From contig OV277864.1 in assembly GCA_922989275.2 (NCBI GenBank), positions 71,490,158 to 71,554,157 on the forward strand: 64,000 bases of DNA, in the 5' to 3' direction. Every line of letters begins with the position of its first letter. Within the stretch, counting starts at the first letter, position 1. The notes beneath the pieces were generated by a model. That model searched no databases and was not told where the DNA came from. It saw nothing but the letters and a program-made list of their open reading frames with translations. A program made the translations under genes and the position numbers. Shown piece by piece: positions 444-53,128 of the stretch. Source of the stretch: Gari tellinella. Lineage: Eukaryota; Mollusca; Bivalvia; Cardiida; Psammobiidae.

Positions 444-800
444 CAGTGTTCCCTCCCTACAACGGCCCTCCCAACAACGACTCCCTCCTTACAACGACCA
501 TTGCCGCTGTTCCCCACAAGAACAGTTATGTCTAACGCTTTTACTGCTGCAATATAGTCTGTTTAAAGTTGTCTTCTGATGTTTTTCTCAAAGTTACACA
601 TTGGACAATTTGACAGAAAAAAACTTCATGATGGGTGACAAACAGCTTGAATCAAGATCAGACGCCGCGTGACGCGGCGTCTGATCTGGATTCAAGCTGT
701 TTGCAAATGTTAACCAATATCCCTCCCTATAACTACTCCCTTCGAACAACGTACACAATTTTTGTCTCCCAATGGATGTCGTTGTAGGGAGAGAGCACTG
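444..800 (-). mobile_element. TA-2 MITE, full length
   Basis: Ends CAGTGTTCCCTCCCTACAAC on the left and its inverted match GTAGGGAGAGAGCACTG on the right, with TA on both outer sides. The H1 hairpin lies at 639-703 with a GCGTGACGC tip. The copy carries the GGGAGGG/CGTTGT subterminal repeats typical of the family. No coding capacity. Confidence 0.93.
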
Positions 801-951
801 TACAATGGCATTTCCAACCAGATTAACCCATTCAAGGTTATGTTCAAGTTGGTTATTAAAAGCAGAAAGGGGTATACGATAAGTGAACAATTTACCTATT
901 TGAATAACGCTTTATACAATAAGTCATACATTCAACATTCAATAAGTCATA

Positions 952-1509
952 CAGTGGTAAAAACGCTATGCCTTCCCACTCTACGCGTTTCTTACGCTTT
1001 CGTTAACCGTTCACTATGAGTTTATTATCCGTTTCGTTAAACGGCTTTCCTAGCCGTTTCTTTACGCGTTTATTTACGCGTTTAAAAGAGCCCGGATGAA
1101 AGGGTCATCACTTAGCCGACGGAGCCCTTAGCTTCAGTGGTTTACACACCCACTTTATGACATGTGTATTACAGAACACTAGGTGGTATCGCCGATAACA
1201 TTGCTATCTTTAATTGGCAATACATTGTTAATCCCCAGATATCTGAGTGGCATATGTATAGGCGGGTTACATAAATAGATTGGTTACAGGCGGTGGTCAG
1301 TGCCTGTCGATAAGATCCGAAATCTCCGCGTGAAACGGATACCTGAAGCACCAATCGCAGCATCTCTGGTATAATCGTTTATTAACGCGTTTAAACGGGC
1401 TAAGATCGTTAGGCGTTAAACGTTCGTTAAGCGAATGTTAACTGTTCTCTTTGCGTTTCTTACGCATAGATTAACGCGTAAATGGGTAGGAATAGCGTAT
1501 TTACCACTG
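952..1509. mobile_element. TA-flanked TIR element (TA-4)
   Basis: Terminal inverted repeats begin CAGTGGTAAAAACGCTATGC on the left and pair with the right end, which finishes GCGTATTTACCACTG; both sides abut TA. The subterminal zones are full of CGTTAAACG and TTTACGCGTTTA blocks in both orientations. The 558-bp body has no transposase-like frame, so it is a non-autonomous Tc1/mariner/pogo-type element. It is the only copy in the window. Confidence 0.85.
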
Positions 1510-1518
1510 TACGTATGA

Positions 1519-1730
1519 CCCCTTCATTGACTTATCCCGAGTAAAATGGGTCATTTGCAAACAGTTTGGTCTCTGATTTAATGCCATATATCGTGGCGCG
1601 TGATCAGGATCCGAACTTTTTGAACCCATTTCAATATATTTTAAGTCAAAATACCTTAACTTTAAATTTGATATTAAAGCAGACGATAATTGTCAAAATT
1701 TGATGACGAAATGACTGAGAAAGGGGTTAA
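1519..1730 (+). mobile_element. TTAA-1-like MITE, degenerate
   Basis: Starts ACCCCTTCATTGAC and ends GAGAAAGGGGTTAA. An eroded H1 hairpin follows the left end (TTTGCAAACAGTTTGG, then GATCAGGATCCGAAC), and the right part keeps the family blocks AAAGCAGACGATAAT and TGACTGAGAAAG. It sits a few bases after the TA-4 element. Confidence 0.7.
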
Positions 1731-1842
1731 AGAGTTAGATTAAAAGAAAAAGAGATGTGCAATATTTAATATATTTATTTGCAAAATGCATGATAATAAC
1801 AATGCCAAAAAAGAAAAAAAGAAGAGTTTTCTAATTTACTGC

Positions 1843-2055
1843 TTAACCCTTTGCCTGCTGGTCGCGACTTTACTGATTTTTGCAAACAGTTTGGAACCAG
1901 ATCAGACGCCGCGAAACGCGGCGTCTAATCCGGATCCAAACTGTTTGACACTCGTCTTTAGGTGTTTTTACTTGGAAAATGTTTAAATCTAGATTTAACA
2001 ATATTTGCAGACGACAATTTCGAAGCAGACAATTTTACCGCAGGATAAGGGTTAA
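1843..2055 (+). mobile_element. TTAA-1b MITE
   Basis: Begins TTAACCCTTTGCCTGCTGGT and ends with its inverted match CCGCAGGATAAGGGTTAA, both including TTAA. The H1 hairpin is at 1883-1947 with tip GCCGCGAAACGCGGC. An open frame across the hairpin is a by-product of the palindrome, not a gene. Confidence 0.92.
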
Positions 2056-2842
2056 TTTGCAAAGCCTTTTTAAAATAGTTGGTAAAACATAACCATAAAT
2101 AGTAAAACATGGACTTGACTCAAATGGCAACTTGAACTTTCCATTTGAAATTTCATCGAGGAATAAGGTGAATAGATCTTCAAGTGTGCCTGTAGTAGAC
2201 ATAGCACAATCGAGAGCATGCTATTATTTCCCTTTTAAACGAGACGCAAACGAAGTTTAATAATATGTAGAAAATAGTTACAATGTTTTGAAATGTCTTA
2301 TTATTCATTTTAGTTTAAACATATTTTTTTCCAGAAGTGCATATGATTACATTTATACATGCTAACGTAAATAAACAATACTCAGGAAAAGGATTGAAAC
2401 GAATGAATAAACTTATTGAGATTCTCTCCTTATAGATACTATTATCCATTTTAATCTGAGTTGTAAACATTATTGAGATTTAAAAGCCACCGGGCTACCT
2501 GACGTCTGTTCTGTCTCCAAAATGTTTGCAACAAAAACAATGATTTTAGCGTAAACAAGTTTATTGAGAGAGAATAGCGTCCTCTCCGCTGTATCAACCA
2601 GCGCCTTTGAGGAATATCAATTCGTGTAGATTATAAGAAGAGAGGAACGGGATATCGCTGTTTCATTACTCTTAATTAAAGTATTCATATATGTCTAGAT
2701 AAATTGCATATGGAATCAGAATTGACTTTCTACTGGAGAAATAAATGGGACTTGACAAGATTCATAATAACTGATTGAAAGCACAATACTAACCTTCAGA
2801 TATGTTATATTGAAGGTGGCTATTTCATTTGCAATGTAGGTA
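2056..2842. other. Unassigned stretch with TA-1 remnant
   Basis: Mostly featureless AT-rich DNA. At 2502-2593 there is an eroded right half of a minus-strand TA-1: TCTCCAAAATGTTTGCAAC, then TTTTAGCGTAAAC, then a decayed terminus CCTCTCCGCTGTA. A possible left end with TTTCCCTTTTAAACGAGACG lies near 2230. Confidence 0.5.
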
Positions 2843-3088
2843 CTGTGGAGAATATGTTATTCTTTCCCAATAAACGCGTTTACTCTAAAACTATTATTTA
2901 CAATACAAACAGTTTGGAGCCAGATCAGACGCCGGGTAACCCGGCGTCTGATCAGGCTCCAAACTGTTTGCAACCAAGATAAACATGAATTATCAGAATT
3001 GTCCAAAAATTGTTCTTTTCTAGGTTTGAGTGCTTTGCGCTTGCGTACGTTTGCGTTTAAACGAGAAAGAATAACAGATTCTCCACTT
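2843..3088 (+). mobile_element. TA-1 MITE, full length
   Basis: Left end CTGTGGAGAATATGTTATTC, right end GATTCTCCACTT, flanked by TA. Contains the family's TAAACGCGTTTAC block, the H1 hairpin with tip GCCGGGTAACCCGGC (about 2910-2971) and the GCGTACGTTTGCGTTTAAAC block near the right end. The last G of the terminus is mutated. Confidence 0.92.
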
Positions 3089-3105
3089 TATCCTGTTACA
3101 ATATA

Positions 3106-3427
3106 CAGAACTTTTCCCTACAACGGTCCACCAAACAACGATTCTCTCATCTCAACGAAGTTTGCCGCTGTTCCACAAACAAGACAGTAATATCGAACCT
3201 TTTCACGGCTGTAATATCGTCTGCTTAAAATTGTCGTCTGATGTTTTTCTCACAGTCACATATTGGAATTTTTGACAGGCAAAACGATACTGACGAGTGA
3301 CAAACAGCTTGAATCCAAATCAGAAGCCGCGATATGGATGCAAGCTGTTTGAAAACGTAAACCAATTTCCCTTCCTATAACATTTCTCTCCGGACAACGG
3401 TGTTGTGTTAGAGAGATGGCAATCTAT
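3106..3427 (-). mobile_element. TA-2 MITE, right end eroded
   Basis: Left end CAGAACTTTTCCCTACAACG after TA, then the CAACGATTCTCTC and CAACGAAGTTTGCCGC subterminal blocks. The H1 hairpin is shortened (about 3301-3352, GAATCCAAATCAGAAGCCGC then GATATGGATGCAAGC). The right terminus has decayed. Only 17 bp separate it from the TA-1 copy upstream. Confidence 0.8.
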
Positions 3428-3448
3428 AATACCTTGATACTATAAAAC

Positions 3449-3588
3449 AAATATTACATGGCAGCTTGCGTGACATTCAAATTGTCAAACCCAAAAACAA
3501 TATGTCACCCCGAGGCGAAGCCGAGGGTGACAGTCTTGTTTTCGAGGGTTGACTATTTGAATGTCAAGCAAACTGCAATGTAATATTT
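3449..3588. repeat. Long inverted repeat with GGCGAAGCC centre
   Basis: Arms of roughly 65 bp (AAATATTACATGGCAG... pairing with ...CTGCAATGTAATATTT) close on the tip CCCCGAGGCGAAGCCGAGGG. It belongs to a loose group with 7689-7803 and 39662-39756, which also have a CpG-containing stem tip and a nearby TGACGTCA-type site. Confidence 0.85.
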
Positions 3589-4420
3589 ATTTTATTACCC
3601 CGAGCTTATCAACCCTGCCTGTGGACTCGTCTCGTTTGTGTTTTATTAAATATGTTGTGAATACCAATTAAGCGCCGCCGTGCACGTAACGCGGGAAACG
3701 ACATCGACGCCTACGACGTCACATTGTTTATATCATTACAAAAAAGAAAGAAGAACGTTAAGACAAGTAGATTGAAGACACAATGTCTGTTTCATTGTCT
3801 AGTTGCAGGGTTCGCGCTGCCTATCGCAAACGGCGCCATTTGCGCAAGAAATTTAATTTGGCTCAAGAAAATCTCATCTGGCGAAAGTAACTGACGCCGA
3901 GATTTTTCGTAAATAGAGCCGAAGAATAGAGTGTTCGTATGTTTAGTTACCTAGATTTGGTGACGAAAATCAACTCTATAGTGGATAACCAGACTAATTA
4001 TGATTACTCGAGTGTGAAATCTGGTGACCTTGCAACACATCCCGTCTGTGTTACATGTATGTCACAGTGTATTGCTGTTATGCAATATGGGTATCAAGCA
4101 GTAAGCATTGTTTACACAAAGTATATTACTAATTGATTGCTAGACCACGACACCTATCATAGTTGGTCATGCTTCTAAAGTTCAGTTTTCCAATCAACTT
4201 CCGATTGTGTAGAGTAAACAAAAGATGTAATTATTTAAGTTATCACTCACCTAAAAAGATCCTTATCCTCCTATGTGATTTTTCTAATTCAATTAATTTA
4301 ATCCCAGTAGATCTTTTACATGTACATATTCTATAAATCACACTAAAAATGTCCGCGAGTAGCCTTCAACTGTTGGCAAATATTCTCCTCCGAAATTGTG
4401 GCAAATCGTTTGGATGGAGT
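3589..4420. other. GC-richer flank with CRE-like site, no clear gene
   Basis: 3600-3900 is richer in CpG than its surroundings and includes ACGACGTCACATTG (CRE-like) and a 22-bp near-palindrome, TCGCAAACGGCGCC...TTGCGC, near 3827-3848. An open frame of 65 codons starts at 3939 and has no recognisable domain. This could be the internal part of the element headed by the 3449-3588 hairpin; I do not call a gene. Confidence 0.4.
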
Positions 4421-4424
4421 TAAA

Positions 4425-4669
4425 GTCATTTCGTAGCCGAGTCATTTCGTAGCCGGTAAAATAAGTCATTTCGTAGCCGAATTTCGAGTCATTTCGTAGC
4501 CTCGCAAAAACTGACAGTCATTTCGTAGCCGATTTTTGAGTCATTTCGTAGCCGCCAAAAAAGTTGAATAAGTCATTTCGTAACCACAAAAGAATTGAAA
4601 ATGAATGGCCCCAAATAAGGCATAAGTCATTTTGTGCCTCTGAAAATTGGAAAAGTCATTTTGTAACCG
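4425..4669 (+). repeat. Nine-copy GTCATTTCGTAGCCG motif array
   Basis: The 15-nt word GTCATTTCGTAGCCG recurs at 4425, 4441, 4465, 4488, 4517, 4540, 4572, 4626 and 4655. The first six are exact or nearly so; the last three carry substitutions (CGTAACC, TGTGCC, TGTAACC). Spacers are AT-rich, unrelated to each other and vary in length, so it is neither a simple satellite nor a CRISPR array. Confidence 0.95.
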
Positions 4670-4961
4670 AATATTTTTTTTTGGAGTTTTCTGACATTTA
4701 TTTCAACAAAAAAATCAAAGCCGTACTTGATCGCGTATTGTGGCAAATTTAACTTAAAGTATCACCTTATTATACAACTTAGCGGAATTTCCCATTACTT
4801 GGTCTGTGATCAGAATCTAAACTGTACGCAGATGCTTGCAGAGCATGCCTTAGCAGGAAAGGGTTTCCCCTTATTCAGATTTATAATTCACAACAGCAGA
4901 TTTTAAGTGCTTCTGTGGCGGCTGTAAAAAGTCGCCCCGTACTTCATTCTCAGTGTTGTTA
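4670..4961. other. Unassigned, with hairpin remnant
   Basis: GTCTGTGATCAGAATCTAAACTGT at about 4801-4824 is an eroded right arm of an H1 hairpin. TTTCCCCTTATTCAGATTTA near 4866 matches the 3' end of the repeat that starts at 4962, possibly the end of an older tandem copy. Confidence 0.45.
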
Positions 4962-5163
4962 TACTTTCTTGTCCTTTGGAATCATTGATTTCAGCGCATT
5001 TACAGTTGAAAATTGAATTCCGCTTAAGCTGGTGCTAGGGGGCGTGAGCACTGTTGCATGTTTTAGTATTGCTCATGAACACAATCAATTAAACCGAGTC
5101 TGCAATTTTCAGTATTTGCTTTGTTTTCTGTGCTTTCAAAGGATCTCCCCTTATTCAGATTTA
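4962..5163 (+). repeat. 202-bp dispersed repeat, copy 1
   Basis: Runs from TACTTTCTTGTCCTTTGGAA to CTCCCCTTATTCAGATTTA and matches 48092-48293 over the same 202-bp length with few differences. Internal landmarks are CCGCTTAAGCTGGTGCTAGG and AATTAAACCGAGTCTGC. There is no obvious TIR or tRNA box. The second copy interrupts a MITE, which shows the unit moves as a discrete block. Confidence 0.85.
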
Positions 5164-5316
5164 TCTAAATAATTTGCCAAGATAAAATTGAAAGTTATCA
5201 TTATTGTATTACATACCAATCATTTATAATACTTTATTATCTTTTGATGACTTAAAGCTTAGAGAGTTTTACATACATCTGACGAACATAATCTTAGAGA
5301 GAAGCTATTTGTTATA

Positions 5317-5529
5317 CAGTAAAATCCTCCCTTGGCATCACTAAAAAGAAGACAGAAGAATTGCATGAAAAGGCAAGTAACTACTTGAAGCAAAGTGAAA
5401 ATAAAACTGGAAGCTTCCAAAAGAGCTTTCTGTTTCACGTTCACCTTGTTTTATGTAGATATCTGCCTTAAACTTAAACAATTACAAACATCACAATTTA
5501 GTGGTTGTAGTAGAACGGATCAACAGTTG
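5317..5529. mobile_element. TA-3 MITE, degenerate
   Basis: The left end CAGTAAAATCCTCCC follows TA and continues to CACTAAAAAG. The right side carries TTTAGTGGTTGTAGTAGAAC, the mirror of the left end. The H2 hairpin is at about 5381-5458 (CTTGAAGCAAAGTG and TCACCTTGTTTTATG arms) and is partly mismatched. Confidence 0.7.
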
Positions 5530-5622
5530 TAAATAAATGCTAGATTTTGATACGAGCGTATGAACAAACGAGTCATAAAATTAGACTGAAATGAGATACG
5601 AAACCTAAGGAAAATACACTGC

Positions 5623-5852
5623 TTAACCCTTTTGTGCCCACGATCTTATATATGGGACATAGGCAAACAGTGTAGACTCTGATCAGACGCCGCATTATGA
5701 GGCGTCTGATCATAGTCTACACTGTTTGCTGATAGGAATTTCAATATAAAACAAAATGAAAATTGAAAATTTTGACCAGGCATCCCTTTGATAAAAAATG
5801 TACTATTCCAATATATATACATGGAAGAATCCACTTGGCGCAAATGGGTTAA
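5623..5852 (+). mobile_element. TTAA-2 MITE, full length
   Basis: TTAACCCTTTTGTGCCCACG at the left and GCAAATGGGTTAA at the right. The H1 hairpin at 5664-5728 uses the family-specific stem TGTAGACTCT/AGTCTACA with tip CGCATTATG. The right part holds the family block TTTGACCAGGCATCCCTTTG. Confidence 0.93.
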
Positions 5853-5870
5853 TATATTTGACCTCTTGTA

Positions 5871-6117: not shown

Positions 6118-6251
6118 GTCAAATACAAGCTTAATGCAGAGCACAGGAAACGTAGAAAGTTCCAATGGGAGCTTCGTGCAATTATTTTGCTCTACATTTG
6201 GCTGGCGTTTGTCATATAGGCTACAATGAAGACGACGTTATTCTTATCCTT

Positions 6252-7976: not shown

Positions 7977-8205
7977 TTAACCCATTTGTGTCCATGATCC
8001 CATATATAGGACATAAGCAAACAGTGTAGAGTCTGATCAGACGCCGCATTAGGCGGCGTCTGATCAGAGTCTACACTGTTTGCTGATAGGAATTTCAATA
8101 TAAAACAAAACGAAAATAATGTTTATGACCAGGCATCCCTTTGATGAAACATAGACTACTCCAATATATAAACATGGAAGAATTCACTGGGTATGAATGG
8201 GTTAA
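7977..8205 (+). mobile_element. TTAA-2 MITE, full length
   Basis: TTAACCCATTTGTGTCCATG to TATGAATGGGTTAA. H1 hairpin at 8018-8082; here the left arm reads TGTAGAGTCT against AGTCTACA. The right part carries GACCAGGCATCCCTTTGATG as in the copies at 5623 and 52903. Confidence 0.93.
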
Positions 8206-10401: not shown

Positions 10402-10649
10402 TTAACCCTTTCGCTCTCAATGACGCTTAAAGGCGCGCTTGCAAACAGTTTAGATCCTGATCAGACGCCGCGTAACGCGGCGTCTGATCATGATCCAAAC
10501 TATTTGACACTCGTTTTGAAATATATTCAGTCATACTGCCAGGTTTTTTAACTTTGAAACGACATTGCAGACAACAAAATTGAAGCAGCCGAAACTGAAA
10601 CGGTGAAGGGGTAACAATCTCACGAAACAATTGGCAGTGAAAGTGTTAA
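10402..10649 (+). mobile_element. TTAA-1 MITE, full length
   Basis: TTAACCCTTTCGCTCTCAAT to GGCAGTGAAAGTGTTAA. H1 hairpin at 10442-10506 with an unbroken GCCGCGTAACGCGGC tip. Family blocks AACGACATTGCAGACAACA and GGTGAAGGGGTAACAATCTC are present. It lies 4 bp beyond the degenerate TA-1. Confidence 0.92.
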
Positions 10650-14713: not shown

Positions 14714-14964
14714 TTAACCCTTTGAACCCTAGTCACGCATATAGGCGTCCTTTTCAAACAGTGTACATGTGAATAGTACACTTGTCCTGTGCAAACAGTG
14801 GAGACCCAGATCAGAGGGCTCCCAAAGGAGTCCTCTGATCAGGGTCTTCACTGTTTGTCATAATGCCAAAAATGAACAAAAAGAACCCTATAAAGCCAGA
14901 AATGGACTAGACTAAAATCGAAACAGGAATTGTCCATTTAATGCTTCAGGGAGGAAAGAGTTAA
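14714..14964 (+). mobile_element. TTAA-3 MITE, full length
   Basis: TTAACCCTTTGAACCCTAGT to GGGAGGAAAGAGTTAA. The H1 hairpin at 14792-14857 has the family tip AGGGCTCCCAAAGGAGTCCT. A second, unpaired CAAACAGTG lies upstream at 14755. This is the best plus-strand copy; 33303 is its mirror. Confidence 0.93.
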
Positions 14965-15384: not shown

Positions 15385-16442
15385 ATATACACAGGTACTT
15401 GACACATACTTTATTATCTATGAACCCCCTCCCCCCTTAAAAAAAAAAAATTTTTTTTTTTTTTACTATACTTCTTTTATAGATACAAGGTAAACAGCGC
15501 AATTCGACACCTAGTCTTTACTATCGACTTAAACTGATGCTAAAATAGACTCGATCGCCGATATTCTCTTGTGGTACCCTCGGGAAATGATTAATTTATC
15601 AATATCTACTTTTTATTTCATCAAATTCCGTCAAATAACGCCACAGTACGTGAATTATAACGAAAATAAGCTTCAAAAAGTTTTATGTCGTTCTCTTGGT
15701 ACAGAATTTATTGCCCAAAATAAGGGGTAATCTAGTCGGTTTGCACATTTAACGGCCTTTACGGCTGGAACTTTCACCTAATTTCATTAGAGCAAATGCG
15801 TGTGTGTCGGAACATGGCCCTCTTCACTATCAGCTATATGAAATATACATGTAATTTGGCACGAAATTGACAAGTGAAAGACTCATTTCATTTTCAATGC
15901 CATTTTGAATACCGGAATGAATCGAATGAACGGAGCGATCTCATTGGTCAAAATTAAAGAGGTAAAGTTTCTTTTAATTTTGCATTCTATGTAAATTATA
16001 TAAAACTGATAATATTTCATTTAAAGATGATTTATAATATTTGGTGAAAGTTCCAGTGGCATAGGCCGTTTATTGTGGACAAATAACAGATCACCCCTAC
16101 ATGTACATTCGTTGCTATGTACCAAGAAAACGACAAAAAACTTTTTGAAGCTTATTTTCGTTATAATTCACGTACTGTGGCGTTATTTGACGAAATTTGA
16201 TGAAATAAAAAGTAGATATTGATAAATTATTCTTTTCCCGATGGTACCACAAGAGAATATCGGCGATCGAGTCTATTTTAGCATCAGTTTAAGTCGATAG
16301 TAAAGACTAGGTGTCGAATTGCGCTGTTTACCTTGTATCTATAATAGAAGTAACTATAGTAAAAAAAAAAAAAAATTTTTTTTTTTTTAAGGGGGCAGGG
16401 GGTTCATAGATAATAAAGTATGTGTCAAGTACCTGTGGATAT
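15385..16442. repeat. 1.06-kb foldback palindrome
   Basis: The outer arms begin ACAGGTACTTGACACATACT and its complement. They stay nearly identical for about 310 bp each (about 15392-15705 and 16125-16433), including a (C)n-(A)n-(T)n tract and CGATCGCCGATATTCTC. Inner arms match more weakly to GGAACTTTCACC near 15770/16050. The loop (about 15790-16030) contains GAATGAACGGAGCGATCTC. No frame of note is present. It looks like a foldback transposon or a recent inverted duplication. Confidence 0.93.
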
Positions 16443-16675
16443 AGTAAAGAATGGACCATGCCTGTTGAAACCTAGAACTGTTCATTTAGGGTAACGACTT
16501 GATACAGTTATAAAAGCAACAATAGCGTAGCATTTAAATTATTCAGAATCAATTTGAACATCGCTCGAAAACGTGAACCACTTCAATGTCAGCGTTTCAT
16601 CCCAAGGGCTCCTTACATATTAAATTATAACAAAGATGATTTATTGGTCATTCCTCAGCTGTCATTTAACCCCTT

Positions 16676-16883
16676 CACTGCCATGACGTCATCAATTTTA
16701 AACAAATGTCGTCTACTTTGATTTATCAAATTCAATGTTTAGGTTTTTTGAGTTAAGAAAATATTGAAACTAGTGTCAAACAGTTTGAATCCTGATTAGA
16801 CGCCGCGTTACGCGGCGTCTAATCAGGATCGAAACTGTTTGCAAATTACCGTTGTACTCGGGGTAAGGCAGTGAAGGGGTTAA
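16676..16883 (-). mobile_element. TTAA-1b MITE
   Basis: TTAACCCCTTCACTGCCATG to GGCAGTGAAGGGGTTAA, an almost perfect terminal inverted repeat. The H1 hairpin at 16777-16841 lies close to the right end, which fixes the orientation. A consistent change GATTAGA/TCTAATC in both arms preserves pairing. Confidence 0.93.
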
Positions 16884-18910: not shown

Positions 18911-19120
18911 GTGAAAGTAAATACTCGCTATTACGACCACTAAAACGAATGCTAATTGATTAACTAATAGAGAGGTGACAGCTTAAAGCAAGGTGACAGT
19001 GAAACAGAAAGCTCCTAAAGGAGCTTTCTGTTTCACTGTCACCTTGCTTTAAGCGGTCACCTACCGTAAACACCCTAATACTTTACATAATTTAGTGGTC
19101 GTAATAGAGAGGTTTTACTG
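18911..19120. mobile_element. TA-3 MITE, best copy
   Basis: The right end TAATAGAGAGGTTTTACTG is intact and followed by TA; the left end has decayed to GTGAAAGTAAATACTCGC. The H2 hairpin is perfect over about 72 bp from AGCTTAAAGCAAGGTGACAG to its complement, with tip AGCTCCTAAAGGAGCT. Confidence 0.88.
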
Positions 19121-23678: not shown

Positions 23679-24089
23679 CAGTGAATTTCGCTTATAACGA
23701 AAGTTGATATAACAAAAAACACAATTCATTCCCTATATCTAATGTACGTTTAGTGACCTGGGTCCCGTTTTACTAAACTACTTACGCAAAATTTTTGCGT
23801 AAGTCAAATTTTTTTATTTTAATCTATATTTTTTATTATCACTTGCTACAAACAGCAAATAGCCAGATCAGAGGACGCGCTTTTAGCGCGTCCTCTGATC
23901 TGGCAATTTGCTGTTTGCAAACGTTTATGATCGAAAAATAAGAATTAAACGACTTTGACTTACGCAAAATTTTTGCGTAAGTTGTTTAGTAAAACGGGCC
24001 CCTGGACCTGCTATAAAAATTATTTGGATACATGTATAACGAAAGAAATCAGACGGTCCGGACGAGTTCGTTATAAGTGAGCTTCACTG
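23679..24089. mobile_element. pogo/Tigger-like TIR element, interrupted
   Basis: Ends CAGTGAATTTCGCTTATAAC and the near-complement TTCGTTATAAGTGAGCTTCACTG, bordered by TA. The CAGTG start plus an AACGA core is the usual layout of pogo/Tigger termini. Without the insert at 23759-24004 it would be only about 165 bp, so it is a MITE. Confidence 0.85.
23759..24004. mobile_element. GC-1 foldback element
   Basis: Ends GGGTCCCGTTTTACTAAACT and its complement, each followed by TTACGCAAAATTTTTGCGTAA, itself a palindrome. The centre is an H1 hairpin at 23849-23917 with stem CAAATAGCCA and tip GACGCGCTTTTAGCGCGTC. It sits inside the pogo-like element. Matches 47288-47527. Confidence 0.9.
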
Positions 24090-24092: not shown

Positions 24093-24654
24093 TTAACCAA
24101 TCTGTGTCAACGATCCCATATATTGGACATATGCATTATGCAGCGTCTGATCAGAGTCTACACTGTTTGCTAAAAGGAATTTCAATATAGAGTGCTCCCT
24201 CTCTACAACGGCCCTCCCAATAACGACTCCCTCCTTGCATCGATACTTGCCGCCGTTCCCTAAATAGGACAATTATGTCTAACGTTTTAAAGTTGCAATG
24301 TTGTCTGCTTAAAATTGTCGTCTGCTGTTTTTCTCAAAGTAACATAATGGGCATTTTGACAGAAAAACACTTAACGATGAGTGACAAACAGCTTGAATCC
24401 AGATCAGACGCCGCGTTACGCGGCGTCTGATCTGGATTCAAGCTGTTTGCAAATGTAAGCCGATTTCCCTCCCTATAACGACTCCCTCCGAACAACGCGC
24501 ACAATTTCTGTCCCCCAATGGGTGTCGTTGTAGAGAGGGAGCACTGTAAAACAAAAATGGAAATGAAAACTTTTGACCAGGCATCCCTTTGATAAAAAAT
24601 GGACTAATCCAATAAATAAACAGGGAAGAATCCACTAGGCGAAAAATGGGTTTA
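24093..24654 (+). mobile_element. TTAA-2 MITE split by TA-2
   Basis: The left part (24093-24189) has TTAACCAATCTGTGTCAACG, then only the right H1 arm, GCAGCGTCTGATCAGAGTCT, then TTCAATATA. The right part (24547-24654) resumes TAAAACAAAAATGGAAATG and GACCAGGCATCCCTTTGATA and ends near GAAAAATGGGTTTA. The intact copies read CAATATAAAAC at the junction. Confidence 0.9.
24190..24546 (-). mobile_element. TA-2 MITE nested in TTAA-2
   Basis: GAGTGCTCCCTCTCTACAAC to GTAGAGAGGGAGCACTG, with TA on each side; the host sequence shows a single TA there, so TA is the target duplication. H1 is at 24385-24449 with a perfect tip. Confidence 0.96.
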
Positions 24655-32214: not shown

Positions 32215-32411
32215 TTAACTATTTGCATCCTAGCGGCGGATATGTCCTACAATGATTATCTTTGCAAACAGTTTGGATACAGATGTGACGCCGCGTAAAC
32301 GCGGCGTCTCATTAGTTTCCAAACTCTTTGATAAATTGACCCCCTTTTGAAAAGAAAATTTGAAAGTACTAGTTTTAGAAACGAAAACATACCCTGCATG
32401 CAAAGAGTTAA
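32215..32411 (+). mobile_element. TTAA-1b MITE
   Basis: TTAACTATTTGCATCCTAGC to GCATGCAAAGAGTTAA. The H1 hairpin (32265-32330) keeps GACGCCGCGTAAACGCGGCGTC, with an odd flank GATGTG/TCATTAG. Right arm CTCTTTG pairs imperfectly with CAAACAG. Confidence 0.85.
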
Positions 32412-33302: not shown

Positions 33303-33553
33303 TTAACTTTTTCCTCCCTGAAACTTTAAATGGACAATTCCAGTTTCCAATTAAGTCTAGTCCATTTCTGACTTTTAAGGGTTGTTTTTTTCAATGTTTG
33401 GTATTATGACAAACAGCGAAGACCCTGATCAGAGGGCTCCTTTCGGAGCCCTCTGATCTGGGTCTTCACTGTTTGCAAGGAACATGTATACTATTCACAT
33501 GTACACTCTTTGAAAAGGACGCCTATATGCGGGACTAGGGTTCAAAGGGTTAA
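33303..33553 (-). mobile_element. TTAA-3 MITE, full length
   Basis: TTAACTTTTTCCTCCCTGAA to GACTAGGGTTCAAAGGGTTAA. H1 hairpin at 33410-33475 has tip GGGCTCCTTTCGGAGCCC, better paired than in the 14714 copy. Its right TTAA is shared with the next element. Confidence 0.94.
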
Positions 33554-40020: not shown

Positions 40021-40410
40021 CCTGAATTAAACGATAAACACGATTGACTACAATTATTGGGGAGTACTACTGGGAAAATTCATAAAAGAAGCTCGCGCGA
40101 CGATAATTCCACTGCTTGAATCAGTAAAATTATCAAGTGATAATCCACTGTTATTTCATAGTAATCCACCGAAGAGCATAAATAAACTATTTTATTTGCA
40201 GCGAAACATGTTATTAGCCTCAATTAAGTAGAAGACTAAATGAGAATAAAGTAGCGATGTGTTAGCTGAATACAGGCAACATAAATATAGACAGTTCCAT
40301 TTTAGGCCTTTCTCAGGCTATTTGCATTATTTTAGTGATGCATTTAAGACTGTTGTTTTAGCAAGTCCTGTTTGTCTATTGTAAGTTACCTCTGTCACTT
40401 ACACAGGGTT
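40021..40410. other. Unassigned stretch
   Basis: No repeat or coding signal recognised. Confidence 0.45.
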
Positions 40411-40657
40411 CTGGGGCCCGTTTCATAAAACTTCTAACGACAAATGTTGTCGTAAGTCAGATTATAAATGTCTCAAATATTTTGTGTTTCTCCATCAAAT
40501 CTTGTCTTGTCACATCTTTTTGGAATCGTCTTGAAAAGACGATTCCAAAAGGATGTCACAATACAGGATTAGATAGAGACATCAGAAATTAAATGTATTT
40601 TAAAGTTTTGACTTACGACAACATTTGTCGTAAGAAGTTTTATGAAACGGGCCCCAG
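40411..40657. mobile_element. GC-2 foldback element
   Basis: Ends CTGGGGCCCGTTTCATAAAA and complement, extending about 42 bp through CGACAAATGTTGTCG with a single mismatch. The centre carries a different hairpin, TTGGAATCGTCTTGAAAAGA with CGATTCCAA, not H1. The terminal similarity to GC-1 (GGGCCCGTTT) with a different centre parallels the hairpin exchange in other families. Confidence 0.9.
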
Positions 40658-41300
40658 TCTTGCTTCGTAAAAGAGGCTTTACCTATCTAGGTTGATTGTA
40701 AAATTGCGCATGAAGTTATCTTTTATATAGTCATTAATTATAATTTTATCAAAATACTTCATAGTTAATTAGTTGTCGGTATTTACATTTTTTCTGCTGA
40801 ATTACACTGGTTATGACTGGAATATAACATTTAATATCATAATAACACGGTACTACCCGATCGTTTTTTTATAAGCATGAGTGGGATTTTACACAAAGTT
40901 TTATCTTGTTTAAAATGAATCCCTTAAATAATCGACATTATCTTGAACAGACACTTAATGCAAGTTTGACTTAATAAGCGTTAAAAACTTAATGAATTTC
41001 CCAATTTTATTTATAATAAAATCTATTAATAACTGAACTATTTGGAGAAAGAAGCTAAATGTTCTATAGAAACAAAGGGTTTTAAATTTGGCTCGAAGCG
41101 GAACTATTCGTGTATTGTTTACACATTGTATTTACATATCTCGGTCACACTATCACAAGGCACGTGGATACGGAGTTACGCATCTGCTTTCAATGAACCA
41201 ATGACGTATTAAATCCTACGTTTGGCATGATCTTCATTGGTTATGATTATTGTGCTATAAATGTTCTCATACTGATATCATTTGCCAACAGCAACACTAC
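40658..41300. other. Unassigned stretch
   Basis: AT-rich, no recognised repeat or exon. Confidence 0.45.
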
Positions 41301-41514
41301 TTAACCCTTAGCCCGCCAAATAAATTGTCGTCTGCTATATTTCTCGTCTGCTTCAAGTTTCAAATTGCTTCAAAGTTGCTCAAAATTGCTGAAAATGTTG
41401 TCCGAGTGTCAAACAGCTTGGATCCGGATGAGACGCCGAGTTACTCGGCGTCTCATCCGGATCCAAGCTGTTTGCATATGGAGCTATAGTCGTGAGTGGC
41501 AGGCTAAGGGTTAA
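41301..41514 (-). mobile_element. TTAA-1b MITE, full length
   Basis: TTAACCCTTAGCCCGCCAAA to GGCAGGCTAAGGGTTAA. H1 at 41410-41474 is perfect and reads GGATGAGACGCCGAGTTACT, so GATCAGA is GATGAGA here with matching TCTCATC in the other arm. Confidence 0.94.
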
Positions 41515-41979: not shown

Positions 41980-42251
41980 AAAATAATTTTTTGTTAGAAT
42001 AAATTGTACAATACTTAAAAATGAGTTAGAGCGCACAACCAGTGAACAAATATATCTTGACTAATTAATGCATTATCAATCGCAACGCATACTAAAGATA
42101 TCTATATAACTTTTATCAAGCAATAGATAACCACTTGTGGCGACGACTGCGAATGTAGATTCTTTAATCTTTTGGATACATACTTAGTGTCTAGGGTGAC
42201 AGCAAACATGTTATTCCCTTTTCATAGTTGAATATATATAAGTATGATATA

Positions 42252-42497
42252 CAGTGGGGAATGTGTTATTCTTTCCCAATAAACGCGTTTACGCTAAAAC
42301 TATTATTTGCAGTGCAAACAGTTTGGAGCCAGATCAGACGCCGGGTAACCCGGCGTCTGATCAGGCTCCAAACTGTTTGCCACCAAGATAAACATGAATT
42401 ATCAGAATTGTCCAAAAGTTGTCATTTTCTACGTTTTAGTGATTTGCGTTTGCGTACGTTTGCGTTTAAACGGGAAAGAATAACAGATTCTCCACTG
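42252..42497 (+). mobile_element. TA-1 MITE, full length
   Basis: CAGTGGGGAATGTGTTATTC to CAGATTCTCCACTG, TA on both sides. H1 is perfect (about 42316-42380). Almost identical to the 37758 copy. Confidence 0.96.
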
Positions 42498-42544
42498 TAT
42501 AAGCAGTAAATGGTTTCAACAAACGACATTATTTGTAGTAAAAT

Positions 42545-43940: not shown

Positions 43941-43942
43941 TA

Positions 43943-44310
43943 CAGTGAAACCCCTCTAAACCGGAACCTCTAAATACCGGAATTCCCTCTAAACCGGACA
44001 AAAACTTTGGTCCCGTTTCCAACCCTTCTTTATCTTAACCCATTACACCATCAATACGCATTTTTACGTCTTTGGTTTATTCTTACACTTAAGAAAATAG
44101 ATTGTACATTCTAGCAGATGATAGCTTAAAGCAGGTTGAAAGTAAAGCAGAATGCGCCTTAAGGCGCATTCTGCTTTACTTTCAACCTGCTTTAAGTGGT
44201 CAGTTATCTTCTATACTAGAAACAGGTAAAAAACCCTCTAAACCGGAAACCCCTCTACATCACGACATTTTTGTTGTCCCCACAATGTCCGGTTTAGAGG
44301 GGTTTCACTG
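43943..44310. mobile_element. pogo/Tigger-like TIR element, interrupted
   Basis: Ends CAGTGAAACCCCTCTAAACC and the complement GGTTTAGAGGGGTTTCACTG, with TA on both sides. The word CCTCTAAACCGGA recurs three times just inside the left end and again near the right end, as in subterminal transposase-binding arrays. A TTAA-4 copy occupies the middle. Confidence 0.92.
44035..44232 (-). mobile_element. TTAA-4 MITE nested in pogo-like element
   Basis: TTAACCCATTACACCATCAA at the left and CTAGAAACAGGTAAAAA at the decayed right. The H2 hairpin at about 44125-44196 is perfect, with tip GCGCCTTAAGGCGC. Confidence 0.86.
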
Positions 44311-45400: not shown

Positions 45401-45614
45401 TTAACCCTTATCCTGCGGTGATGTCGTCTGCTTCGAAAATGTTGTCTGCAAAACTTGTTAAATTTAGATTTATACATTTTTGTAAGCGAAGAAACCTTAA
45501 AAGGGGTGTCAAACCGTTTGGATTCAGATCAGACGCCGCTTTATGCGGCGTCTGATCTGGATCTAAACGGTTTGCAAAAAATAATAAAGTCGCGAGCAGC
45601 AGGCAAAGGGTTAA
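45401..45614 (-). mobile_element. TTAA-1b MITE with compensated hairpin
   Basis: TTAACCCTTATCCTGCGGTG to GCAGGCAAAGGGTTAA. H1 at 45510-45574 has CAAACCG in the left arm and CGGTTTG in the right, a paired change from the CAAACAG/CTGTTTG seen elsewhere. Confidence 0.94.
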
Positions 45615-47287: not shown

Positions 47288-47527
47288 CTGGGGCCCGTTT
47301 TACTAAACTACTTACGCAAAATGTTTGCGTAAATCAAAATCGTTTTACTCTTATTTTTCGATCATAAACGTTTGCAAACAGCAAATAGCCAGATCAGAGG
47401 ACGCGCTTAAAGCGCGTCCTCTGATCTTGCTATTTGCTGTCTGTAGCAAGTGATAAAAAAAATATAAATTTAAATTTAAAATTTTGACTTACGCAAATAA
47501 TTTGCGTAAGTTGTTTAGTAAAATAGT
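47288..47527. mobile_element. GC-1 foldback element, second copy
   Basis: CTGGGGCCCGTTTTACTAAA at the left; the right end breaks off at GTTTAGTAAAATAG. H1 at 47375-47443 has tip GACGCGCTTAAAGCGCGTC. The centre is inverted relative to the 23759 copy. Confidence 0.88.
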
Positions 47528-48054: not shown

Positions 48055-48091
48055 TGCTCTATATCCTAGGAGACGGTAGCTTAAAGTAGGG

Positions 48092-48293
48092 TACTTTCTG
48101 GTCCTTTGGAATCATTGACTTCAGCGCATTTACAGTTGAAAGTTAAATTCCGCTTAAGCTGGTGCTAGGGAGCGTGAGCACTGTTGCATATTTCAGTATT
48201 GCTCATGAACAGACTCAATTAAACCGAGTCTGCAATTTTCAGTATTTGCTTTGTTTTCTGTGCTTTCAAAGGATCTCCCCTTATTCAGATTTA
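48092..48293 (+). repeat. 202-bp dispersed repeat, copy 2
   Basis: TACTTTCTGGTCCTTTGGAA to CTCCCCTTATTCAGATTTA, matching 4962-5163 end to end. It lies inside a TTAA-4 hairpin arm, which defines its boundaries. No target duplication is obvious. Confidence 0.88.
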
Positions 48294-48346
48294 GAAAACG
48301 CAGAATGCTCCTTGTAGGCGCAATCGGCATTCACGCTCTACCTACT

Positions 48347-48598
48347 TTAACCCTTTACCTGATAGCCTATTTCTAGTATTGAAGATATGTGACTACTTAA
48401 AGCAGGTTTAAAGTAAAGCAGAATGCGCCCTAAGGCGCATTCTGCTTTACTTTTAGCCTGCTTTAAGCTATTAACTGCTAGAATAAGGAAAGTATTAAAT
48501 ATGGCACATATTCATTACGGTATAATTTGGAACTATTTTCTTCAGCGGATGAATAAAATGAATGTGCTAAAAGTCGCTTCTATAAGGGAAAGGGTTAA
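48347..48598 (+). mobile_element. TTAA-4 MITE, full length, nested
   Basis: TTAACCCTTTACCTGATAGC to GCTTCTATAAGGGAAAGGGTTAA. The H2 hairpin at 48396-48467 is nearly perfect, tip GCGCCCTAAGGCGC. Host sequence CTACTTTAA resumes with TTAAGTGG, so TTAA is duplicated. Confidence 0.95.
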
Positions 48599-48630
48599 GT
48601 GGTTACATGTCTTAAAACAAGACTATGGTT

Positions 48631-49048
48631 ATGGGATAATTAGTTAAATGAAAAGCAGTATCACATTATAACAATCTTTCTTCCATTTCATTTTTTTTCA
48701 CTATGTTGTGTATGTATGATATCTGCCTGACCTCATCTCGCATAAACACCGATATAATCAGCTTATTTCTTGTACTTACATTAATATTTTGTTTTTGTCT
48801 AAAGCTATCTATCTGCATTTCAAACGCAACACAAAAACGTTGTATTGTAAACATATAACATCATGAACTTGACATTTGGCGCGAAAATATCTATCTTTGT
48901 TGATAGAAATTGTATTGATTTTTTAAATAAATACAGATTCATATTGTTTATAAAGTATTGCATTTTTCGTTGAAAACGACCTCTTACGTATACACAATAA
49001 CTTTTTAAGAAACAATGTTTCTGCTAATAGAACATATTAATCAGTTAG
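48631..49048. other. Unassigned stretch
   Basis: AT-rich, no recognised repeat or exon. Confidence 0.45.
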
Positions 49049-49291
49049 TTAACTATTTCGCTGCCAAATTAATCATAAAATGTTACCCATTCACCGTTTC
49101 ATGGTCGTCTGCTTCAATATTGCTGTCTGCAATATCGTCTCAAAGTTAGAATTAATGAAGTTAAACTGACGTTTTTCAAAACAATTGGCAACAGTTTTGA
49201 TTCTGATTAGACGCCGCGTTACGCGGCATCTAATCAGATTCAGAACTGTTTGCAAATGCGCTTTATGACGTCATTGAGAGTGAAAGGGTGG
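49049..49291 (-). mobile_element. TTAA-1 MITE
   Basis: TTAACTATTTCGCTGCCAAA to TTGAGAGTGAAAGGGTGGA. H1 at 49189-49252 carries GATTAGA/TCTAATC in both arms. The right end contains TATGACGTCATTGAG, a CRE-like palindrome common to the family. Confidence 0.9.
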
Positions 49292-49693
49292 AAGCTCATT
49301 CAACAATTAGAATAATCCTTTCCAAAGCACGTGATAGAAAGTAAAAGGGTTAAGGTAGATATCTAACAATGCTTTGTGAAACGACAAACAATACACTTTG
49401 CCGAGTAAATTACTACACTGCTTGCAAAGAAAAACGTAATGTCTAGTACAATGTGTTTATATGGCACATGTATCCATCTCTAGGGGTTAATGAGTTAAAA
49501 CAATAAATACCTCAGATTATGAGTGATGTTTGAATATGGCTACGGTAAATTCTGCAGCAAATCAGATGCAGAAATCAGCTTCCTGAATGTCTCATACCGC
49601 TGCTATTTATTGTAGAACTGCCATGATAATATGGTTTATTGTTAATTTAACCAACTTATACAGTGAACTGTCGATATATACTTTAACTGTCGA
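49292..49693. other. Unassigned stretch
   Basis: No repeat or coding signal recognised. Confidence 0.45.
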
Positions 49694-49695
49694 TA

Positions 49696-50049
49696 CAGCG
49701 CTCCCTCTCTACAACGACATCAAATGGGAGACAAACATGGTGTGCGTTGTTAGGAGGGAGTCGTTATAGGGAGGGAAATCAGCTTACATGTGCAAACAGC
49801 TTGAATCCAGATCAGACGCCGCTTAACGCGGCGTCTGACCTTGATTACAGCTGTTTGTCACTCGTCATTTAGTGTTTTCTGTCAAAATGGCCATTATGTA
49901 ACTTAGAAAAACAACAGACGACAATTTTAGCAGACGACATTGCAGCAGTAAAAGCGTTAGACATTATTGGTTTGTTTAGGGAACTGCGACAAGGGTTGTT
50001 GTAAGGAGGGAATCGCTGTTGGGAGGGCCGTTGAAGGGAGGGAGTACTG
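49696..50049 (+). mobile_element. TA-2 MITE, full length
   Basis: CAGCGCTCCCTCTCTACAAC to GAAGGGAGGGAGTACTG; TA precedes, TT follows. H1 at 49793-49857 with mismatches in the right arm (GTCTGACCTTGATTACAG). Confidence 0.93.
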
Positions 50050-50200
50050 TTACAGTATATACTTTCTAGAATATATCATTATAAATATAAAGGTGGGTTT
50101 TCTACATACGCTGCGGTGTTTGTCTATACATCAGATAATCTAATGAAATTGCATACATGCCACGCTAATAAGATGCTGCGTTGCATCAGAGTTTACGTAC

Positions 50201-50367
50201 AGAGTCCAAGGTTATAAAGCTATTGTGCTGAGCCTGATAGCGTTTTCAAGCATTGCATTGGTCAGATTTGAGCCTAGGCTCAGATTTGAGCCTAGGCTCA
50301 AATCTGACCAATCAAATACTTGAGAACTACTTCAGCCTCCACTTAAAAGCTTTATTACCTTGGAGCC
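50201..50367. repeat. Family D palindrome, copy 1
   Basis: Outer arms AGAGTCCAAGGTTATAAAGC and TTTATTACCTTGGAGCC. The inner arms CATTGGTCAGATTTGAGCC are perfect. The centre contains CAGATTTGAGCCTAGGCT twice in tandem. Related to 51192-51332. Confidence 0.85.
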
Positions 50368-51191
50368 ACCATTTGATAATGCCTACCTTCTAGGATGATA
50401 AGTATTAATGTGTTTCCATCTTACATTGATCTTATTAACTATACTGGTACATTATTATGTCTGACACTGTCCTTATTATCAAATTTTAAAGAGAGCGCAC
50501 TGTACACACACATTTGACTGCGGTTGAAGTGTAAACGCAACAGCTGTTATTATTATGTTGACGTGAAACGGCAAACTCATTTATTGTTATGCAACTCGGA
50601 AAATGGAAGCATAAATAAAAAAATCGCAGAACAAACATTTATTATGTTTTCATTCCTGCGATTCATATTTGAGATACAACGACTATCACGGCTGATTTCT
50701 TTGAAGAATAAATATTCTGCAAACATGGCGAAATTGTCGACCCATGTTTGTTTGACCTCCTAAATATGATTTGAAACATGCGCTTATTGAAATGAAACAA
50801 CACATTCTTGCCATTGAAATTAAATTAGTAGTACTCGATTTCAGTTTTTTGGACCATTTGCTATTCCCCTGTGTTTTATTCGTTCCAAGCAACACTTTCT
50901 GATGAGCCAATGGGCACTCAGATGACAGATAAATTTCCATCAATTTGTACATAATTCATGACGACACAAATTCAATTAGACAAAACAGCACGTGTTACAA
51001 TGCAAATTAATACAAAAAGAGATTTACAAAGTATTTTCTAAACAATCTGCAAAACAACGATTAAACAGAATTTGAGAGACACGTAGTAATCATCAAATGA
51101 ATCTTTGCAGCAATTATTTCGAAGGTCGATGTCAAAATTCACAGTTTTTGCGCAGATACGATATTTTGCCCTACATTACCCAAATAAACCA
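50368..51191. other. Unassigned stretch
   Basis: About 0.8 kb between the two family D palindromes. Overlapping opposite-strand frames of 79 and 88 codons have no recognisable domain. Confidence 0.4.
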
Positions 51192-51332
51192 TAGTCCAAT
51201 GTTATAAAGCATTTGAGTAGAGTCTGAATTCGTTCTCAAGCATTTGTTTGGTCAGATGTTTAGCTTTCGCTCAATTATGACCTATCAAACGCTTGGAGAC
51301 TGCCTCAGACTCTATTCAAACGCTTTAAAAGC
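51192..51332. repeat. Family D palindrome, copy 2
   Basis: TAGTCCAATGTTATAAAGCA, GTAGAGTCTGA, TTCTCAAGCATTTG, GGTCAGATGTT pair with TGACCTATCAAACGCTTGGA, TCAGACTCTA and CGCTTTAAAAGC. More eroded than copy 1. Confidence 0.75.
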
Positions 51333-51413
51333 TTAGACATAGATCACTCATACAGTAACAAAGTCGATATTTTCCAAAGGTAAATGTGTATGTGATAAAA
51401 CAAGAATCCCAAT

Positions 51414-51605
51414 TGCAAACAAATAAGTCAGATAAGACGCCGTGTAACTAGTCGTCTATTAGAGTCCAAACTAATTGCCACTAAGAATCAAAGACATCGT
51501 CAACGATTCAAAGAAATTTTCAAAAAAACTTTTTCTATATTTCATCATATGGCGTTTTCGTTTAGTTTCTGTGAAAATAAGAAATAATTACACATTGTCA
51601 ACTGT
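51414..51605 (+). mobile_element. TA-1 remnant
   Basis: TTGCAAACAAATAAGTCAGA, GACGCCGTGTAACTAGTCGT and GAGTCCAAACTAATTGCCAC form a decayed H1. CACTAAGAATCAAAGACATC and GCGTTTTCGTTTAGTTT follow. Left end lost. Confidence 0.6.
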
Positions 51606-52775
51606 TTGACCGTACGATAAGAATAAGGAAAAACAATACCAGGTAAATGTAAAATCTAGCCAAGGATTTTTTGGTAAAACGTACTCCTTGTCGACCCATA
51701 ATAAATGTTTCCTAAACAATATCATTGTGAACTACTAATCCCAGGTTAGATACACTACTAGTTTCTAGTGGAGATAGTATATTACAGACTAATATAGGGT
51801 TCCTTCCAATTACATTGTACATGTACATGTTCTATATTCTCTACTCCAACAGCTTGTGGGAGTCGGTGTCCTAAAAGGATCGATTCTTTAGCGTCAGCAC
51901 TGTAGGGTACTTAAATATATCCCTTATTAGACAGGATATTTCGTGATTCAAAACTTCCGTCATATTTATGTGGTAAAACAGACGTGTGATATTTTTGACA
52001 ACATATATTTTCAATTTAATCCCAAAACAGATATAATCTTGATCGGACGGCGCTGTACGTGGCGTTCGATCAGGATCAAACCTGATTGTAAACTATATTT
52101 GCTTGCGGTGTAAGGCAATGACGAGTTTAGAATTGGAAACATGTTTTGCAATCGAGGGAGTAATAGATATATAGTGGGCCATAAATAATAAATATTCCAT
52201 GGCAATAACGGTATGGTTCATTAAAAAGGATGATAGATAGTCCGTTCATTATAACATCATAGCGTATTACAGTTTGTCGAAAAAATATGAAAGCTTATGG
52301 ATGCACTTTTAATTTTAATGTTCGTTTACTGTCAAGTCACCAGCTCTAAAGGACGTATACTGACTAGTAAAAAATTAAATATACACTTATTGAATTTTAT
52401 TCTGTTCATCCCTTCCCTGTCATGACGATATATAACTATTTAGATAGTTGTCGTCAAATGAAATAGTCTAAAATCTGACAACTGCCGAGAAACACAATCA
52501 AAATTGTATGTAAATCCAAACCTATGTATCCGTTAGTTTTTCCGTTCGTCTATCCGAACACATATACGGTACATGATTCGTCCACCCAACTGCTATGTCT
52601 TACAAGCTAGAATATTATCATTTTACATGATGTAATCACGTATACCACAAATCTATATATCCTTTAGACTTTGATATATTTCAAAATTGTGGATGGTTAA
52701 ATCGAGTCTACAATGAACTTCACACATGTATTCTACTGACAAAACTACAACACTAGTGTATACATGTATTTGAGT
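51606..52775. other. Unassigned, with H1 remnant
   Basis: A decayed H1 lies at about 52025-52090 (AAACAGATATAATCTTGATC, GGACGGCGCTGTACGTGGCG, TTCGATCAGGATCAAACC). It is flanked by GTGTAAGGCAATGACGAG, suggesting an old TTAA-1b. The rest is unassigned. Confidence 0.45.
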
Positions 52776-52892
52776 GGCAAACAACGTTGAGCCTGTGCAC
52801 CTGGTGATATGTCGGGTGTCCCGTTGTCGGTTATTTATTCATACCGTTTTCAATAGGAATACTTGTTTTAGCAAATACACTTAGTATACATT
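52776..52892 (-). mobile_element. TA-1 remnant
   Basis: GAGTGGCAAACAACGTTGAG, GGTGATATGTCGGGTGTCCC and ACTTGTTTTAGCAAATACAC follow the minus-strand TA-1 order. Both arms and termini are eroded. Confidence 0.5.
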
Positions 52893-52902
52893 GTAACATG
52901 AA

Positions 52903-53128
52903 TTAACCTATTTGTGCCCACGATCCCATATATGGGACATAGGCAAACAGTGTAGACTCTGATCAGACGCCGCATTAATGCGGCGTCTGATCAGAGTCTA
53001 CACTGTTTGCTAATAGGAATTTCAATATAAAAAATGAAAATGAAAATTTTGACCAGGCATCTCTTTGATAAAAAATGGGCTAATCCAATATATAAACATG
53101 AAATAATCCACTGGGCGTAAATGGTTTA
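52903..53128 (+). mobile_element. TTAA-2 MITE, full length
   Basis: TTAACCTATTTGTGCCCACG to GGCGTAAATGGTTTA. H1 at 52944-53009 is perfect, tip GCCGCATTAATGCGGC. GACCAGGCATCTCTTTGATA is present. Confidence 0.94.

Follow-up and report, generated by a model that had tools for sequence, protein, structure and literature searches.

A hairpin with covarying stems shared by miniature transposons of three end classes in a 64-kb stretch of the bivalve Gari tellinella

The CMITEs of Acropora corals are TTAA-ended miniature inverted-repeat transposons (MITEs) of about 100 bp with CC[C/T]T termini, and the report on them (PMC2872659), which also describes a composite element, CMITE-IN, finds that families differ less in the internal region than in the terminal repeats and suggests a role for that region in transposition. 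In the mPing/Ping/Pong elements of rice, internal MITE sequence is reported to alter transposition frequency at constant transposase (PMC9921582), and the V domain of short interspersed elements (SINEs) is described in the MER6 MITE as a conserved internal domain that two unrelated types of transposon have in common (PMC6887750). Here we analyze a stretch of 64,000 nucleotides (hereafter, the window) of Gari tellinella contig OV277864.1 (assembly GCA_922989275.2, positions 71,490,158 to 71,554,157, forward strand), in which a hairpin, H1, recurs within MITEs that end in TA, TTAA or GGGCCC.

The CMITEs are the nearest report that we found. By inspection, the likeness lies in an internal part that is kept between families more than the ends are, for in the window the hairpin boxes are kept and the element arms differ. 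CMITEs are reported with TTAA ends only, whereas here a covarying hairpin is also present in TA- and GGGCCC-ended elements; moreover, a term search of the main text of that report returned none of ‘hairpin’, ‘stem-loop’, ‘palindrom’ or ‘secondary structure’, and blastn with the published CMITE 60-mer yields nothing significant in the window (best E-value 0.36). The rice elements differ in forming one related group, and the abstract of that report describes no hairpin across end classes; the V domain belongs to SINEs and occurs in a single group of MITEs, whereas the present case is a hairpin that one genome has in several end classes. To judge from literature searches, the hairpin itself has not appeared in print.

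A dense hairpin with covarying stems

The window is AT-rich (36.2% GC), and its list of open reading frames contains three of at least 120 amino acids, the longest of 150. H1 is real and dense within it. Each arm of the hairpin reads CAAACAG, ten variable bases, GATCAGA and a variable tip. The GATCAGA box occurs 86 times against 6.04 expected, and the CAAACAG box 100 times against 11.29. The double box CAAACAG-N10-GATCAGA is found 26 times on the forward and 28 times on the reverse strand (54 over both), and never in 20 first-order Markov simulations. CAAACAG is followed after 30–60 nt by CTGTTTG in 28 stretches, 25 of which span 65–69 bp, and a profile search with H1 returned 70 matches at E<5e-3, roughly one per kb, some of them incomplete.

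An initial annotation, made from the letters alone, had proposed that six unrelated transposon families (TA-1, TA-2, TTAA-1, TTAA-2, TTAA-3 and GC-1) carry this module with covarying stems. The six families, with the stem and tip strings quoted for them, are present. From arm clusters and element ends we set up nine families, adding TTAA-4 (1883, 45510), TTAA-5 (41410) and TTAA-6 (16777); a further carrier at 32265 is unassigned. All 28 stretches sit within miniature transposons whose arms belong to one of the nine families, with the assignment of 41410 and 16777, the copies that define TTAA-5 and TTAA-6, resting on their TTAA ends. One arm or both could be assigned for 57 of the 70 profile matches; for the other 13 (E-values 2e-12 to 3e-3) neither could. 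The module had been placed at 444..53128; further copies lie past the end of that stretch (e.g., 54896, 57380, 58988 and 61835).

Folded as DNA, seven representative hairpins have energies of −32.9 to −41.4 kcal/mol (z −12.3 to −17.4) and loops of 3–4 nt. When the hairpin arms of each family are scored against a profile of the other eight, all nine exceed all of 2000 shuffles. Between the boxes the two arms had been annotated as agreeing, but not every position does so: stem position 17 is an A.A mismatch in 10/10 aligned TA-1 copies and 2/2 TTAA-3 copies.

Covariation of the stem is strong. Alignment A1 comprises 37 of the 70 matches (33 distinct), namely the full-length copies of assigned families plus 32265, and leaves out degenerate copies and the deleted hairpins at 3301, 22632, 54896 and 57380. 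In A1, 92.4% of cells are paired, against 81.9% in shuffles, and both members of the pair are changed in 99 cells, where shuffles average 26.8 (sd 3.9); 17 of 32 pairs include such a change, and slid registers reach at most 36.7% paired. None of 500 shuffles attains any of five measures, which bears out the proposal that the stems covary.

How the pairing may have been kept

Because relatedness inflates covariation tests, we compared changes at the family level with changes at the copy level. Paired doubles make up 24 of 39 types of change between family consensuses but 5 of 61 changes private to one copy, the latter being counted as events rather than types (Fisher p 1e-8). The private changes were drawn from TA-1 (10 copies), TA-2 (10) and TTAA-1 (5), excluding any change present in at least two copies of a family; with TA-1 and TA-2 alone, 3 of 39 are paired doubles (p 7e-7). 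Of the base changes between families 7 of 58 fall in the boxes, and of the private changes 25 of 68; since the boxes had been picked out as shared sequence, this contrast is in part circular.

Since slow correction of one arm by the other could also give a contrast between family and private changes, old copies were examined for pairing, with duplicate loci removed, at consensus-paired positions only and in four age classes. Loci of more than 0.35 divergence (15 of 71), which are unrelated hairpins or the second hairpin described below, were excluded from the argument. Watson-Crick pairs number 642 of 665 in the youngest class, against 642.5 expected under independent decay (z −0.1); 392 of 452 against 386.6 at divergence 0.05–0.1 (z 0.7); 225 of 277 against 208.2 at 0.1–0.2 (z 2.3); and 175 of 279 against 158.1 at 0.2–0.35 (z 2.1). 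Old copies are thus losing their pairing at nearly the rate of independent decay, apart from a modest surplus of pairs in the two oldest classes. Furthermore, the A.A mismatch in 10/10 TA-1 copies argues against free correction between arms, which would remove it. Inverted copying within elements, which the initial annotation had set against a shared module, therefore accounts for the arm agreement incompletely, yet the excess in the older classes may reflect some of it. Pairing seems to have been kept mainly in amplifying lineages and much less afterwards, with some copying between arms possible.

We lean towards the reading that H1 is an internal cis-acting hairpin module of MITEs, selected during amplification and acting at the level of DNA. 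Selection would operate while the elements multiply, lineages with a paired hairpin leaving more copies, and this part of the reading we consider likely. Action as DNA rather than RNA is the likeliest mechanism, though its odds seem to us about even; the hairpin would then serve as a cruciform, as a single strand during replication or excision, or as an inverted-repeat binding site. H1 would be recognized by a factor independent of any single transposase, for which a host DNA-binding protein is the probable candidate, and recognition would raise excision or reintegration; a host factor as the reader of H1 is nevertheless a tentative idea, and a somewhat unlikely one. The function of H1 is perhaps that of a DNA-level transposition enhancer.

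Several points weigh against this reading, beyond the comparison of types with events and the circularity of the box contrast. Five paired double changes are private to single copies (an earlier, uncleaned count gave seven, with about 1.2 expected), and these, like the excess pairing of old copies, could reflect arm copying, unrecognized subfamilies or an alignment fitted to the structure. Correction confined to transposition would mimic selection. Lastly, the aligned copies are few in most families: one each for TTAA-5, TTAA-6 and 32265, three for TTAA-2, and two for each of TTAA-3, TTAA-4 and GC-1.

The alternative that survives best, although we think it rather unlikely, is that a functionless hairpin was carried along by nested insertion and common descent, its arms made to agree by template switching or conversion. 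It draws on the similarity of TA-2 and TTAA families outside the hairpin and the visible nested origin of TA-2 (both described below), on the pairs that old copies keep beyond expectation, and on the five private doubles. Nonetheless, that excess is small and most broken pairs in old copies remain broken, 56 of the 61 private changes are not paired doubles, and TA-1 has retained throughout a mismatch that correction would erase.

Covariation would suit a folded RNA equally well, and the long stable stem is about the size of a microRNA precursor, but a transcribed hairpin selected as RNA, for example as a small-RNA precursor or as protection from silencing, appears improbable. Rfam at gathering thresholds returned one tRNA over the window and no other RNA family, microRNA precursors included; the folded copies have loops of only 3–4 nt; and cut-and-paste elements do not move via RNA. 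Neither are departures from the consensus enriched in G.U (G.T in DNA), which accounts for 4 of 15 unpaired consensus types against 18 of 70 copy-specific single changes, the latter counted before realignment; wobble is thus not favored, which leans weakly to action at the DNA level. An independent 65-bp palindrome inserting by itself into other elements is very improbable, for although the hairpin occurs in several element types and the TA-1 and GC-1 arms are unlike those of the TTAA families, all 28 intact stretches lie within elements (13 of the 70 profile matches lack an assigned arm), TA-2 carried a whole long arm along, and target duplication at the hairpin edges is wanting, with no direct repeat in 27 of 28 stretches and one of a single base in the other, against 18.5 of 28 expected without an edge repeat at random sites.

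The carrier elements and their kinship

Carriers of H1 in the window are as follows (element limits are approximate; arm lengths are in nt).

42315..42379, + strand: H1 in TA-1; TA-ended element 42250-42499 with arms of 65 (short) and 120 (long); folds as DNA at −37.7 kcal/mol (z −14.7)
2906, 11176, 13142, 20992, 28923, 34786, 36092, 37821, 43371: further aligned TA-1 copies
24385..24449, − strand: H1 in TA-2; element 24188-24548, TA ends; 12 more copies aligned
639..703, − strand: H1 in the first TA-2 element, 442-802
10442..10506, + strand: H1 in TTAA-1; element 10402-10649, short arm 40, long arm 143
52944..53009, + strand: H1 in TTAA-2; element 52903-53131, short arm 41, right TTAA mutated
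5664-5728 and 8018-8082: other TTAA-2 copies, TTAA on both ends
33410..33475, − strand: H1 in TTAA-3; element 33303-33553, arms 107/78; second copy at 14792-14857
1883..1947, + strand: H1 in TTAA-4; element 1843-2055, arms 40/108
45510-45574: other TTAA-4 copy, with a paired change within the outer box (CAAACCG/CGGTTTG)
41410..41474, − strand: H1 in TTAA-5, one copy; element 41301-41514, arms 109/40; paired change within the inner box (GATGAGA/TCTCATC)
16777..16841, − strand: H1 in TTAA-6, one full copy; element 16666-16883, arms 111/42; paired change within the inner box (GATTAGA/TCTAATC)
23849..23917, + strand: H1 in GC-1; element 23760-24002, GGGNCCC-type ends; other copy at 47375-47443

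H1 is most diverse in the TTAA-ended, piggyBac-type MITEs. As befits that type, at least one copy in each of TTAA-1 to TTAA-6 has TTAA intact on both ends (10442, 5664, 8018, 14792, 33410, 1883, 45510, 41410 and 16777); other copies have one end mutated (e.g., 19863, 49190 and 52944). The CC[C/T]T terminal motif appears as TTAACCCT or TTAACCCC.. on both ends of TTAA-1, TTAA-4 and TTAA-5, and loosely in TTAA-6, which has CCCC on both ends. TTAA-2, with CCCA on both ends, lacks it, as does TTAA-3, whose short end has CCCT and whose long end has CTCT. TA-1 and TA-2 have the TA ends and terminal inverted repeats of Tc1/mariner-like MITEs, with consensus ends TACAGTGGAGAAT../..ATTCTCCACTGTA and TACAGCGCTCCCTC../..GGGAGCACTGTA. 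The short arm of the TTAA-3 copy at 14792 (14714-14791) contains a second CAAACAG (14755-14761), 41 nt from the TTAA end, as if by partial duplication of a hairpin arm. By eye, an element at 40410-40660 has GGGCCCGTTT..-type ends like those of GC-1 and a different central hairpin (GGAATCGTCTT/AAGACGATTCC).

Outside the hairpin, we compared 18 consensus arms, with the last 14 bases removed, in 144 cross-family pairs with 200 shuffles each. Seven pairs, all of them long arms, had at most 2 of 200 shuffles scoring as high, against about two pairs expected by chance. No shuffle scored as high for TA-2/TTAA-4 (z 14.9), TA-2/TTAA-1 (11.7), TTAA-1/TTAA-4 (10.7), TA-2/TTAA-5 (6.2), TTAA-1/TTAA-5 (4.9) and TTAA-4/TTAA-5 (4.1), and the TTAA-5/TTAA-6 match is weak (z 3.2, 1 of 200). 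In this comparison the arms of TTAA-2 and TTAA-3 could not be aligned with those of other families, nor did TA-1 and GC-1 align to other families outside the hairpin. A single-linkage component of 230-nt arms that joined TA-1 and TTAA-1 was rejected, the linking matches beginning at or past the element ends, in neighboring sequence.

The short and long arms measure 40 and 108 nt in TTAA-4, 40 and 109 nt in TTAA-5, and 42 and 111 nt in TTAA-6; the TTAA-1 consensus has arms of 40 and 143 nt with an inner end-like motif at 108. TTAA-2 (41 and 123 nt) and TTAA-3 (78 and 107 nt) share part of this layout despite their unalignable arms. From a random site, TTAA is found at 40–42 nt in 3.0% of trials. 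The TA-2 long arm contains a decayed TTAA-type end-like motif at nt 107, after which the sequence runs on to a TA end; from this, together with the aligned long arms, TA-2 looks like the hairpin and whole long arm of a TTAA element caught within a TA-ended element. The long arm begins CCACTC in two old copies taken for relatives of TA-1 (34786 and 46933), ACACTC in TTAA-1, TTAA-4 and TTAA-5, and CCACCA in young TA-1, and TTAA-2, TTAA-3 and GC-1 differ from a CACTC start. As a link between TA-1 and the TTAA families, CACTC beside the hairpin would be a weak hint, being five bases found post hoc.

In the history that we propose, several TTAA MITEs would have in common a plan in which the hairpin sits between a short arm of 40–42 nt and a long one of some 108 nt; an element built this way would have been caught in a TA-ended element to give TA-2; and the hairpin, perhaps with a few flanking bases, would have moved to or from TA-1 and GC-1. 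The families had been annotated as unrelated, and common descent of whole elements had been named as the finding that would speak against a shared module. Alignment beyond the hairpin does occur between TA-2 and TTAA-1 and takes in the added TTAA-4, TTAA-5 and, weakly, TTAA-6, but it does not extend to TTAA-2 or TTAA-3, or to TA-1 and GC-1, which are without detectable homology outside the hairpin. What stands is a hairpin module common to the TA, TTAA and GGGCCC end classes, with excess covariation and with pairing apparently kept during multiplication, in families that are not all unrelated. Judged by the arms, its sharing is a matter of descent among at least TTAA-1, TTAA-4 and TTAA-5, of visible capture in TA-2, and of unexplained transfer for TA-1 and GC-1.

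A second hairpin module, H2, reads AGCTTAAAGCAGG..GTAAAGCAGAATGCGCC and has copies as follows.

48390..48473, + strand: H2 between TTAACC (43 nt upstream) and GGTTAA (125 nt downstream), within one element
18976..19059, + strand: H2 with a TA-type end, ACTGTA, 63 nt downstream and none found on the other side
44119-44202 and 63547-63630: other H2 copies

Comparison of 48390 with 18976 shows 26 identical pairs, 6 in which both bases have changed with pairing retained, and 3 that one of the two copies leaves unpaired. The copy at 44119 has TTAACC 84 nt upstream, yet TACAGT and ACTGTA lie further out; it was accordingly dropped as the TTAA form of H2, and 48390 was compared instead. Against the H1 profile, shuffles score as high as H2 in 13 of 5000 cases for 44119, 41 for 48390 and 612 for the TA form, and as high as three unrelated hairpins in 683, 2889 and 4106 of 5000. 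Two of the H2 comparisons point to kinship with H1 and the third does not; the kinship remains a lead.

Other repeats in the window include foldback palindromes at 56378-56501 and 58061-58254 (arms 97% and 81% complementary), by eye a family starting AACTGATTTTTTCGGCG, and a large inverted repeat at 15439-16382, whose 265-nt arms are 93% complementary and 414 nt apart. A tRNA-like stretch at 60841-61150 (GTGAGTTCGATCCCC), seen by eye only, may be a SINE head, and the Rfam tRNA match at 59319-59388 on the − strand (31.9 bits) is missing from the ARAGORN list.

Matches elsewhere and what the module would mean

In some copies H1 stays open in one frame across both arms. The open frame of TA-1 matched no protein at E≤10, and that of TA-2 matched one, P0001 (E-value 0.66). 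With the last 44 residues of P0001 as query, 26 ENA proteins from other contigs came up at E≤10 (P0001 among them), of which 19 have E-values below 1e-3; 24 of the 26 fit a peptide pattern that spans both arms. These proteins are almost certainly read-through annotation and not genes. Because P0016 and P0019 go on with PMSLLWDARLKLVN and PMSYLWAASHKRVN, near LMSYIWDHGHKWVK, which is how the short arm of TTAA-2 at 8018 translates, the TTAA-2 family probably exists in other genomes.

Exact scans of viral contigs found no hairpin core, spaced boxes, TA-1 end or P0001-derived arm pattern, and an exact scan of genome contigs found no hairpin core; these collections hold viruses and prokaryotes, so few matches were to be expected. 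A plasmid search with positions 1-25000 of the window gave no match, and neither did the hairpin sequence and peptide strings in the literature searched.

At its widest, our reading would make H1 a portable DNA hairpin that enhances transposition in MITEs of three or more end classes, with a host protein reading its pairing and its two constant boxes; H1 and H2 would be two versions of it, and families would gain or lose it by capture in many animal genomes. Taken whole, we regard this as doubtful. For annotators the hairpin carries a warning: its read-through peptides, of the ..SVDPDQTPRNAASD.GLHCL.. type, appear in protein listings from other contigs. Without genes of their own, MITEs attain enormous copy numbers, and the question is why certain families win. 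If our reading is true, a selected, structured internal part found across end classes would make that question testable, and it would explain families that have a common core but different ends.

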